A stretch of 64,000 bases of DNA, taken from positions 4,889,001 through 4,953,000 of the forward strand of contig NZ_JAZHSB010000001.1 of NCBI RefSeq assembly GCF_036924715.1, given 5' to 3'. The stretch comes from Bradyrhizobium sp. AZCC 1721. GTDB taxonomy: Bacteria; Pseudomonadota; Alphaproteobacteria; Rhizobiales; Xanthobacteraceae. Made by a program: the position numbers and the translations under genes. Under the pieces are notes generated by a model, which made no database searches, was not told the origin of the DNA, and worked only from the letters and a program-made list of their open reading frames with translations. This document shows, in pieces, positions 21,245 to 24,959 of this stretch. Within the stretch, counting starts at the first letter, position 1. Each line of letters begins with the position of its first letter.

Positions 21245-21979
21245 TTACGCCCCCGGCGGTCGTGGCACTGTCGAGCGCAACATTGCATCCAGAAGCCGGT
21301 CGACGCCGGTCCCCTCGGGCAGCCGGTGCAGGATGTCCTTGAGCCTTCCATCAAGCAGCAGCGTGGTGAAGCCGTGCACCAGCGACCACGCGCGGGCAAT
21401 CGCGGCGGCCTGGTCGAGCGACAAAGCCTCCAGCGCTTCGCCGGTGAGTTTTTCGTTGCGGCTGAGGCTCACCGCGGTGGCCAGTCCTTCGAAGGAGGCG
21501 GTCGCCGCCTCGTGCAGCGAGGGCCGTGTCATGTCGAGCCGCTCGGTACGGAACATCAGCCCGTACATGCCGGGGCGCGCCTGTGCATAGGCGACATAAG
21601 CCTTGGCGCGCGCCAGCGACTTCATGAGTGGGAGCGTTTCGGTGTTGTCCGCCGCGATCATCGCCGCGTTGAAGCGCCGGAATCCGATGGCGGCAAGCTC
21701 GCTCAGGAGTCCGGTGAGATCGCCGAAATGATGGGTCGGTGCCGCATGCGACACGCCGGCCTCGCGCGCAACCGCCCGCAGCGTCAGGCCAGACAGCCCG
21801 TCGCGTTCCAGCACCCGCTCCGCCGCGGCGAGCAAGGCGTCGTGCAGATCGCCGTGATGATAGGGCGTCTCGCCGGACGGACGGCGACGCCGGCTGGCCG
21901 GCCTTTCGGCTACAGTCTTCGCGGGCCTGCGCTTCGCGGCCGGGCGGTTCGTTTTGGTTGCTCTCGATAATCTTGCCAT
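21245..21979 (-). CDS. TetR/AcrR-family regulator
   Basis: A 244-residue repressor. The ATG at 21979 gives a basic 35-residue N-terminus, then a TetR helix-turn-helix (YHHGDLHDALLAAAERVL and LTLRAVAREAGVSHAAPTHHFGD, about residues 40-90). A C-terminal TetR_C-like ligand domain follows, rich in helices. It is divergent from the carotenoid oxygenase. Two near-identical palindromes lie in the gap (21999-22017, 22053-22071), and the same pair recurs before the gene at 23780. The probable regulon is therefore itself, the oxygenase and the two membrane proteins. The ligand may be an apocarotenoid or related terpenoid (inference). Confidence 0.85.
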   Translation of the reverse strand: MARLSRATKTNRPAAKRRPAKTVAERPASRRRRPSGETPYHHGDLHDALLAAAERVLERDGLSGLTLRAVAREAGVSHAAPTHHFGDLTGLLSELAAIGFRRFNAAMIAADNTETLPLMKSLARAKAYVAYAQARPGMYGLMFRTERLDMTRPSLHEAATASFEGLATAVSLSRNEKLTGEALEALSLDQAAAIARAWSLVHGFTTLLLDGRLKDILHRLPEGTGVDRLLDAMLRSTVPRPPGA

Positions 21980-21998
21980 GCGACTTCTTATAACCGCA

Positions 21999-22071
21999 AT
22001 TTTTACACTGTAAAGATTTTGCTTGACGGCGGCTCGCAGTATTCCTACTGATATCTTTACGATGTAAAGAT
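21999..22071 (+). promoter_or_regulatory. Paired TetR operators and promoter of the carotenoid oxygenase
   Basis: Site O2 (22053-22071) is a perfect ATCTTTAC-N3-GTAAAGAT palindrome. Site O1 (21999-22017) has one mismatch in its left arm. Their centres are 54 bp apart. A -35 element TTGACG (22023-22028) lies between, and a weak -10 (TACTGA, 22046-22051, 17-bp spacing) abuts O2. Repressor at O2 would cover the start site. Confidence 0.75.
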
Positions 22072-22089
22072 AAAGCCGGAGGAAACGCG

Positions 22090-23493
22090 ATGCTCGACCA
22101 GGTAACGACCGAGATGGCCCGGACCAATCTGGCGCCGATCCCGATGGAATGCGACGCGGCACACCTCAAGGTGACCGGCGAATTACCGCGCGAGCTTAAC
22201 GGCACGCTTTATCGCAACGGCCCCAACCCACAATTCGACGCGCCCGGCGCCCACTGGTTCGTGGGCGACGGCATGCTGCACGCCTTTCATCTCGAGAACG
22301 GCCGCGCCAGCTATCGCAATCGCTGGATCCGCACCCCGAAATGGCTGGCCGAGCACGACGCCGGCCGTGCGCTGTTCGGCGGCTTCGGCCGCAGGCTGCC
22401 GGGTACGCCTGCTTCGGTTACGCAAGACGGCGGCGTCGCCAATACCAACATCATCTTTCATGGCGGCCGCCTGCTGGCCCTTGAGGAAGGCCATTTGCCG
22501 ACCGAGATCGAGCCTGGCACCCTCAACCGGCTCGGTTATTGCGATTATGGCAAAGGCATCTCCGGACCGTTCACGGCGCATCCCAAGATCGATCCCGTCA
22601 CCGGCGAGATGGTGTTCTTCGGCTACAACGCCGCAGGCCCCCTCACCCCCGCCCTCTCCTTCGGCTCCGTCAATGCCGCCGGCGTAGTAACGCGCTTCGA
22701 TCGCTTCGAGGCCCCCTATGCGAGCATGGTGCACGACTTCATCGTCACCAAAAATCATCTGCTATTTCCGATCCTGCCGCTCACCGGCAGCATCGAGCGC
22801 GCCATGACGGGCCGGCCGCCCTATGCTTGGGAGCCGGACAAGGGCGCCTATGTCGGCGTCATGAAGCGCAACGGCTCCGCCAAGGACATCGTCTGGTTTC
22901 GCGCCGAGTGCTGCTACGTCTTCCACGTCATGAACGCGTGGGAGGACGGCGACCGCATCATTGCCGACGTCATGCAGTACGAGGAGCCGCCGCTGTTCAC
23001 CCATCCCGACGGCACGCCCACCAATCCCGCCAAGTCGCGCGCCCGGCTGTGCCGCTGGACCTTCGATCTCGCAGGCAATACCGATCGCTTCACGCAAACC
23101 TGGCTCGACGGCATTACCGGCGAATTCCCCCGCGTCTGCGATCGAAGCGTCGGTTCAGCCAACCGGCATGGATGGTACGCCTGCGCCAATCCCGACCTGC
23201 CGACTTCAGGCGGATTGTCGGGCCTGGTACATGTCGACGGCAATGGATCGCGGCTTGGCCAGTACCTGCTGCCCGCCGGCGATACGATCTCGGAAGCAGT
23301 GTTCGTTCCACGCGGCGATGACGCCAGCGAGGGTGACGGCTGGCTGATGTCGGTGGTCTGGCGAGCCCGCGAAAACCGCAGCGACCTCGCGGTATTCAAT
23401 GCCACCGATGTCGACGCCGGACCGGTGGCACTGGTGAAGCTCGGACATCGTGTCCCCGACGGCATCCACGGCAATTGGGTTGGCACGGCCTAA
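22090..23493 (+). CDS. Carotenoid cleavage oxygenase family protein
   Basis: A 467-residue seven-bladed-propeller oxygenase that would split a C=C bond of a carotenoid, apocarotenoid or stilbene using Fe(II) and O2. The four iron-binding histidines are at the expected places: H164 (AHPKIDP), H215 (MVHDFIV), H279 (YVFHVMNAWEDGD) and H460 (GIHGNW). GGAGG precedes the ATG. No carotenoid biosynthesis gene occurs nearby, so a plant or environmental substrate is possible. Expression is probably controlled by the divergent TetR through sites at 21999-22071. Confidence 0.9.
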   Translation: MLDQVTTEMARTNLAPIPMECDAAHLKVTGELPRELNGTLYRNGPNPQFDAPGAHWFVGDGMLHAFHLENGRASYRNRWIRTPKWLAEHDAGRALFGGFGRRLPGTPASVTQDGGVANTNIIFHGGRLLALEEGHLPTEIEPGTLNRLGYCDYGKGISGPFTAHPKIDPVTGEMVFFGYNAAGPLTPALSFGSVNAAGVVTRFDRFEAPYASMVHDFIVTKNHLLFPILPLTGSIERAMTGRPPYAWEPDKGAYVGVMKRNGSAKDIVWFRAECCYVFHVMNAWEDGDRIIADVMQYEEPPLFTHPDGTPTNPAKSRARLCRWTFDLAGNTDRFTQTWLDGITGEFPRVCDRSVGSANRHGWYACANPDLPTSGGLSGLVHVDGNGSRLGQYLLPAGDTISEAVFVPRGDDASEGDGWLMSVVWRARENRSDLAVFNATDVDAGPVALVKLGHRVPDGIHGNWVGTA

Positions 23494-23512
23494 GCGCGCT
23501 ATAGCCTCCGCG

Positions 23513-23641
23513 ATGCCGGGGCGCGACGTTGTCGCACCCTACGTTGCAAGCGTCGGCCGAGTCGGCGGCATCAGGATCACGCTCGTTTTGCTGCTCGCCT
23601 GTGCCCTCATGTTTCTCTCGGTCGCGATATTGGGCGCCTGA
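23513..23641 (+). CDS. Possible 42-residue membrane peptide
   Basis: A short frame starting MPGRDVVAPYVASVGRVGG, followed by one strong hydrophobic helix (ITLVLLLACALMFLSVAILG). It begins 20 bases after the oxygenase stop on the same strand. The ribosome site is poor, so expression is uncertain. If real it would belong to the TetR-controlled unit. Confidence 0.35.
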   Translation: MPGRDVVAPYVASVGRVGGIRITLVLLLACALMFLSVAILGA

Positions 23642-23690
23642 AGCGCCCGCAAACCGTTGCAAAGACAATCACAGATCGTCGCGTCGTCGA

Positions 23691-23762
23691 ATTTAGACAG
23701 TGTAAAGATTTCGCTTGACGAGTCCCGGACCGGCTCCTAGTGTATCTTTACGCTGTAAAGAT
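23691..23762 (+). promoter_or_regulatory. Second paired TetR operator and promoter
   Basis: Site O4 (23744-23762) is a perfect ATCTTTAC-N3-GTAAAGAT. Site O3 (23691-23709) keeps a perfect right arm, with three mismatches in the left. Centres are 53 bp apart. A -35 TTGACG (23715-23720) and a -10-like TAGTGT (23738-23743, 17-bp spacing) repeat the layout at 21999-22071, so the same repressor should act here. Confidence 0.75.
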
Positions 23763-23779: not shown

Positions 23780-24358
23780 ATGACAATCTTCCTGATCCTT
23801 GCCCCCTTCGGCTCCTTCGCCCTGCTGATGCTGGTGACGTCGGCCCAGGTCAGCCTGTTCGCTTCGGCCGCGATCTGCCTTGCTGTCGTTGCCATCGACG
23901 TCGCTCGCGGCCGTTCGATCAAGATGCTCGGCGCGAGTTGCGTCGTCGTTTTCGCCGGGATAGGCGCTTGGGTCACGCTGATCGATCCGAACCTGAGCAA
24001 CTCGGCCGTCAAGCTGGCAACCGATGTCGGCGTGCTGGCTATCTCGCTGGCATCGCTGATCATCCGCAAGCCGTTCGTGCTGCAATACGCGCTGGAAGCC
24101 GTCGACAACGAGACGACCAAGCTGCCCGGCTTCATCAAGGCGATCTATATCATCACCTGGGCCTGGACCGGCGCATTCGTCCTGATGATCGTCGGCAACG
24201 TGCTGACGATCTATGTGCCGGGCTTCCCACTCTGGATCGGACTCGCCATCGCATTCGCCGCCCGCAACAGTGCCGCCTATTTCACGACATGGTATCCACA
24301 ATATCGCAGGGCGAAGCATGGTGTCCCGCCGGCGAACGCCCTACCCGGCGCCAACTAA
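23780..24358 (+). CDS. Integral membrane protein of unknown function, TetR-controlled operon
   Basis: A 192-residue protein with about six hydrophobic segments (residues 3-40, 48-66, 77-95, 119-165) and short charged loops. GAGAGG precedes the ATG at 23780. It is the first gene after the second operator pair and is followed 43 bases later by a YciB-like gene. Size and topology recall small membrane proteins related to intracellular septation proteins, and the two neighbours may be distant paralogues. No enzymatic motif is seen. Confidence 0.7.
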   Translation: MTIFLILAPFGSFALLMLVTSAQVSLFASAAICLAVVAIDVARGRSIKMLGASCVVVFAGIGAWVTLIDPNLSNSAVKLATDVGVLAISLASLIIRKPFVLQYALEAVDNETTKLPGFIKAIYIITWAWTGAFVLMIVGNVLTIYVPGFPLWIGLAIAFAARNSAAYFTTWYPQYRRAKHGVPPANALPGAN

Positions 24359-24401: not shown

Positions 24402-24959
24402 ATGAAGGACGTATTCGCCAGACTGGGCGCCGACTTTTTCTCCACCATCCTATTCATCGCGATCTACCTGACGACTGACAACGTGCTGCTGGCGACTGCC
24501 GTCGCGATCGCTGGCGCAATTGCGCAGGTGATCTACTCCCGCATCGAGGGCAAAGAACTCGGTTACATGACATGGGCCAGCCTTGGGCTCGTCATCGTGC
24601 TCGGCAGCGCGACGCTTCTGACCCACGACCCGCGCTTCGTGTTGGCGAAACCCGCAATCGGGCATTTCGCGATCGGCGTCATCATGCTCAAGCGCGGCTG
24701 GATGTTGCGCTACATGCCCTCCATCGTGACCCAGACCATTCCCGAATACGTCACTTTCGCGGGTTACGCTTGGGCCGCACTGTGCTTCACACTCGCCGCC
24801 GGCACGATCGGTGTCGCGATGACCGGCGACATGAAGCTGTGGACGTTCTACGTGACCGTCGTGCTGGTCGGCGCCAAGATTGCCGCCTTTGCAGTTCAAT
24901 ACGTCGCGTTTCGTATTTTGGTCGGCAGCCGGCTTCGCGCCGCCGCCCAGCAAGCCTGA
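24402..24959 (+). CDS. YciB/IspZ-like inner-membrane protein
   Basis: A 185-residue protein with five or six membrane helices. Family marks of the septation protein A (IspZ/YciB) group are visible: YSRIEGKELGYMTWASLGLV and PEYVTFAGYAWAAL. The ATG at 24402 is chosen because upstream codons are not conserved in type. In E. coli, YciB affects envelope integrity. This copy lies in a TetR-controlled unit beside a carotenoid oxygenase, so it may be a specialised paralogue rather than the housekeeping one. Confidence 0.75.
   Translation: MKDVFARLGADFFSTILFIAIYLTTDNVLLATAVAIAGAIAQVIYSRIEGKELGYMTWASLGLVIVLGSATLLTHDPRFVLAKPAIGHFAIGVIMLKRGWMLRYMPSIVTQTIPEYVTFAGYAWAALCFTLAAGTIGVAMTGDMKLWTFYVTVVLVGAKIAAFAVQYVAFRILVGSRLRAAAQQA

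Follow-up and report, generated by a model that had tools for sequence, protein, structure and literature searches.

Why a bacterium should keep two operators around one promoter, and repeat the arrangement at a second promoter with no divergent gene beside it, is the question raised by a gene cluster of the soil bacterium Bradyrhizobium sp. AZCC 1721. We analyzed the cluster within a 64,000-nucleotide stretch of DNA (the window, to which coordinates refer unless a locus is named). The gene for a 244-aa regulator and presumed autorepressor, tetR (21245..21979, minus strand), is divergent from the gene for a 467-aa carotenoid-oxygenase-family enzyme (22090..23493, plus strand; RPE65/PF03055, Pfam E=2.5e-132), which is followed by a second promoter, P2, and the genes for two membrane proteins, MP1 (23780..24358, plus strand; 192 aa, weak VC0807-family match) and MP2 (24402..24959, plus strand; 185 aa, YciB/IspZ family, PF04279). 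The regulator has TetR_N and TetR_C_33 Pfam matches, with a TetR_N helix-turn-helix (PF00440, 37.8 bits; cut-off 24) and a TetR-type C-terminal ligand domain (PF13305, 48.1 bits; cut-off 26.8). Homology between MP1 and MP2 was unsupported (hhalign probability 0.8%). Between the oxygenase gene and P2 lies a 28-codon remnant (23555..23641, plus strand) whose translation, GRVGGIRITLVLLLACAL.., matches the C-terminus encoded by a gene of a related locus (L043), the product of which belongs to PF01124, a MAPEG membrane enzyme; many relatives carry a whole MAPEG-family gene at this place, of which the window keeps the last 28 codons only.

Four matches to a 19-bp palindrome with the consensus ATCTTTAC-N3-GTAAAGAT lie in the window, with 1, 0, 3, and 0 mismatches, against an expectation of 0.01 such matches in dinucleotide shuffles of the same DNA. 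They form two pairs of candidate operators. At P1, in front of the oxygenase gene, a site scan and cassette alignment placed the upstream operator, O2, at 21999..22017 (ATTTTTACACTGTAAAGAT, 1 mismatch) and a perfect operator, O1, over the predicted start at 22053..22071 (ATCTTTACGATGTAAAGAT, 0 mismatches). At P2, O2 lies at 23691..23709 (ATTTAGACAGTGTAAAGAT, 3 mismatches) and O1, again with 0 mismatches, at 23744..23762 (ATCTTTACGCTGTAAAGAT). The start-to-start spacing from O2 to O1 is 54 bp at P1 and 53 bp at P2. Each pair encloses a predicted plus-strand core promoter, composed of CTTGAC, a 17-bp spacer, and TACTGA at P1 (22022..22051) or TAGTGT at P2 (23714..23743), and in sequence both agree with sigma-70 promoters of the alphaproteobacterial type (CTTGAC, ~17 bp, TA-starting -10). 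The TTGACG -35 elements occupy 22023-22028 and 23715-23720, the spacer being counted from the end of TTGACG, and the -10-like hexamers (TACTGA, 22046-22051; TAGTGT, 23738-23743) both stand directly 5' of O1. All elements of the original prediction, a perfect palindrome at each promoter with an imperfect partner 53-54 bp upstream, a TTGACG -35, and 17-bp spacing, were thus found in place. It had also proposed the distribution of the motif in the genome as a check, and across the 7.15-Mb genome all sites with at most one mismatch fall within the tetR cluster. Extra sites with three mismatches occur at chance level as judged by a reversed-pattern control, and the strict full cassette is present in exactly two copies. 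The shuffles, the genome-wide scan, and the strict cassette pattern together rule out chance palindromes, and the lack of additional sites above chance rules out a wide regulon in the AZCC 1721 genome.

We infer from this arrangement a local autorepressor circuit, to which we assign a probability of about 0.8, in which the TetR protein would repress three units, tetR itself, the oxygenase gene, and the MP1-MP2 membrane operon, through one cassette. The protein, with its PF13305 C-terminal domain, would bind the ATCTTTAC-N3-GTAAAGAT palindromes of a forward promoter cassette that reads O2, 5 bp, TTGAC (-35), 17 bp, TAnnnn (-10), O1. Occupancy of O1, which covers the -10 end and the start site, would block RNA polymerase. 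O2 lies a short way upstream of the -35, on the same face of the DNA as O1 and about five helical turns from it; at P1, where it contains the predicted tetR -35, it would also mediate autorepression, and at P2 it would strengthen repression of the forward promoter. A hydrophobic ligand would release the protein from its operators, and our guess is that this ligand is a compound related to the oxygenase substrate. The figure of 0.8 applies to the circuit itself; the two readings of how O2 acts, discussed below, divide a single step within it.

The predicted tetR promoter has its -35, CTTTAC (22010-22015), inside O2 of P1 and its -10, TATAAG, at 21987..21992 on the minus strand. Across the genus a TATA block and the CAT start codon are kept at a fixed distance from O2, at P1 only, and the cassette alignment contains no leftward tetR-type promoter at P2. 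Because the predicted transcription start falls 0-2 nt before the ATG (start codon at 21979), the tetR mRNA is probably leaderless, and transcripts of this kind have been documented for B. japonicum (PMC4842269).

The cassette is conserved throughout the genus. The operator motif was found in 191 of 196 Bradyrhizobium genomes; control matches numbered 0. A strict composite pattern of the full cassette was present in 183 of 192 genomes (control 0), usually as two copies on the same strand (two in 128 genomes, one in 54, three in 1). TetR orthologues, 66-97% identical, go with the same operators, and operator pairs adjoin orthologous TetR genes in other Nitrobacteraceae genera as well. Since almost all relatives keep it, the twin-operator layout is very likely real, with shared descent accounting for part of this conservation. 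Three sequences labelled Frankia, Reyranella, and Ramlibacter (L084, L058, and L113) fall among those of Bradyrhizobium and probably come from mislabelled or contaminated assemblies.

The exceptions bear on which regulator reads the sites. Of the five motif-free genomes, three (G042, G102, and G190) gave no orthologue of TetR, one (G049) has only a distant paralogue, and in the fifth (G091) TetR is cut off by the end of a contig. Oxygenase and MP2 were likewise absent from G042, G102, G190, and G049 in a search that included positive controls; the absences in G102 carry less weight, as this genome is only 67% complete. The module thus appears to be lost as a unit, repressor, operators, oxygenase, and membrane operon together. 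Because operators, oxygenase, and membrane operon are all missing where tetR is missing, the sites appear tied to the adjacent TetR, and we consider this link strong. Recognition of the palindromes by a different regulator is accordingly highly improbable, given that the sites flank tetR, are confined to its cluster in the AZCC 1721 genome, and vanish with it. One case (L135/L193) has a TetR orthologue and an oxygenase gene, with no site within three mismatches, and a few of the genomes with the switch, e.g. G006, have no MP2. The proposal of one TetR regulon covering the oxygenase and the membrane-protein operon gains from the wide occurrence of the operators, in other genera too, and from their disappearance wherever TetR is gone; a regulon of these two downstream units plus autoregulation is very likely.

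We analyzed the anatomy of the cassette in 104 P1 and 64 P2 promoters. The gap between O2 and TTGAC is 5 bp in 102 of 104 P1 and 61 of 64 P2 promoters, CTTGAC is kept in 100% of P1 promoters, and at both promoters the -10 after the 17-bp spacer normally opens with TA. With few exceptions, the start of O1 lies between -1 and +2 bp relative to the -10 end. In pairwise comparison the operators are 0.88-0.95 identical, versus 0.34-0.40 for the spacer. O2 is as strongly conserved at P2 as at P1, even though P2 has no divergent gene, so that its target there is most likely the forward promoter. One way in which it could do so is by activation, with the regulator activating from O2 besides repressing from O1: the centre of O2 precedes the predicted start by ~50 bp, beside the -35, and the site is kept at P2. 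We regard this as quite unlikely, however, since the near-consensus CTTGAC -35 elements leave no obvious need for an activator and members of the TetR family are mostly repressors.

If O2 contributes to repression, as the autorepressor circuit proposes, the two operators could act jointly or independently. Operator spacing ranges from 51 to 55 bp and averages 5.1 and 5.0 helical turns at P1 and P2, in tight phase. This is what would be expected if two dimers on one DNA face acted jointly, as a shared clamp, through a short bend, or by trapping polymerase, and the retention of O2 at P2, where there is no divergent gene, points the same way, as does a paralogous system that keeps 52 bp with a different operator sequence (see below). 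However, all length variation falls at the -10/O1 junction. As the spacing varies only there, the -35 looks like the anchor of O2 and the -10 like that of O1, and promoter constraint alone could then set the distance between the operators; the phase would follow automatically, and contact between dimers at 53 bp would, judging from their dimensions, need strong bending. We therefore consider joint action a possibility, albeit a doubtful one. Independent operators, whose spacing would reflect the placement of O2 at the -35 edge and of O1 at the -10 and start, with no dimer contact or cooperativity, have in our estimate roughly even odds. This reading draws on the nearly invariant 5-bp gap from O2 to the -35, the -35/-10 spacer of almost always 17 bp, and one locus (L099) in which the promoter is kept with an operator spacing of 42 bp and the -10 falls inside O1. 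Yet 42 bp is also near a whole number of helical turns, and O1 shifts by only ~1-2 bp, though a blocking site could tolerate a wider range. The original proposal that two dimers act together thus finds partial support: O2 is conserved at a promoter without a divergent gene, whereas the conserved spacing can be explained by promoter geometry; independent action appears to fit the spacing data as well as joint action does, and the cooperative reading is unproven.

Paralogues and distant homologues display the same geometry. A TetR paralogue of 49% identity (G164) has operators ATATTTAC..GGAAATAT and ATATTTCC..GTAAATAT at a spacing of 52 bp, the first of them followed at 5 bp by TTGACA, i.e. the same geometry in a different sequence (L186:3055-3125). 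Another oxygenase-family gene lies near this paralogue in L186. The same motif is also found next to TetR relatives of 36-44% identity in other families of the Hyphomicrobiales. Four such loci (L145-L147 and L154) have TetR proteins 36-41% identical and near-identical operators, and differ in their target, an ABA4-like protein (PF14108) and a 260-aa membrane protein. In L145-L147, whose homologues are 37% identical, the O2-5bp-TTGAC-17bp-O1 layout is kept; unlike here, a further palindrome covers the -35. Of this middle site only a CTTGAC half remains in Nitrobacteraceae, which may be its relic.

Cassettes also occur away from the tetR cluster. A third complete cassette with 54-bp spacing stands before an MFS_2-family transporter gene, far from the tetR cluster (L179:3782-3854, G173:C38), and another with 53-bp spacing lies just after an amidohydrolase-like gene (L187:3082-3153, G128:C134). 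Given the cassette before the MFS_2 transporter and the second such site in G128, the cassette can apparently serve other genes. Three genomes (at L180, L181, and L198) have one operator-like site ahead of a DUF2306 membrane protein gene, which in the first two adjoins gyrA; in many relatives other TTTACAT-type palindromes occupy this position. With sites in G173, G220, and G020 and in neither most genomes nor AZCC 1721, the DUF2306 gene beside gyrA was rejected as a constant member of the regulon. Taken further, these systems might represent a TetR subfamily with a fixed, cooperative twin-operator clamp of five turns, in which paralogues alter the operator sequence and the cassette moves to new genes, a generalization that we rate as unlikely as a whole.

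At a dozen loci TetR is directly divergent from MP1-MP2 across one cassette, with no oxygenase gene between. Presence and absence of the oxygenase gene require about ten changes on the TetR tree. Oxygenase-free Bradyrhizobium loci nest within oxygenase-bearing clades and, on the strength of the tree alone, look like repeated losses, after which the membrane operon was left with one cassette in front; in basal genera the oxygenase-free state could be ancestral. The two direct-repeat cassettes may have recombined, which would be a natural, though not proven, route of loss. Chimeric flanks of single-cassette loci were rejected as proof of such recombination, as the left flank is necessarily that of tetR and the right that of MP1, and this holds for a deletion and for an ancestral state alike.

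The oxygenase itself belongs to the carotenoid cleavage oxygenase superfamily, having the RPE65 domain (PF03055) and the four iron-ligand histidines, with H164, H215, and H279 kept in all 84 aligned sequences and H460 in 77, the other 7 having gaps. Its closest solved relatives, the lignostilbene dioxygenases LSD4, NOV1, and LsdA, share the four histidines and the equivalent of Phe-59 (84/84). In contrast to these enzymes, the equivalent of Tyr-101 is Phe in 84/84 and that of Lys-134 is Glu in 78 and Val in 6. Tyr-101 and Lys-134 of lignostilbene dioxygenases make contact with the 4-hydroxyl group (PMC8191317), and the substitutions at both positions rule out a true lignostilbene dioxygenase; the enzyme scores 409 bits against the corresponding NCBIfam equivalog cut-off of 800. 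The circuit predicts control of this carotenoid-oxygenase-family enzyme together with a YciB-like membrane operon, and with the oxygenase under TetR control the identity of the inducer would point to its substrate.

The original prediction held that no regulon of such build had been described, and our literature search, with subscription papers mostly outside its reach, likewise found no published description matching it. The closest solved chain to the TetR protein, PDB 3on2, is its best sequence match (E=3.3e-24) and has the same two-domain build (PF13305); we know of no operator or regulon for it. The best comparison is with tetR/tetA, where an autoregulating TetR, a divergent target gene, and two palindromic operators share one control region that has reportedly been the subject of a modelling study. 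The locus here resembles it in its predicted autoregulation, its divergent target, and the two palindromic operators between the genes. It differs in that the operators, 53-54 bp apart, bracket a single forward promoter and in that the layout is repeated at P2 without a divergent gene, the very element that usually explains a second site. The locus therefore offers a clean, nearly genus-wide system for testing why a promoter should be flanked by two operators, with natural comparisons at hand in the 42-bp spacing, the paralogue operators, and the single-cassette loci. The switch is a new and highly conserved local version of the known autoregulating TetR switch.
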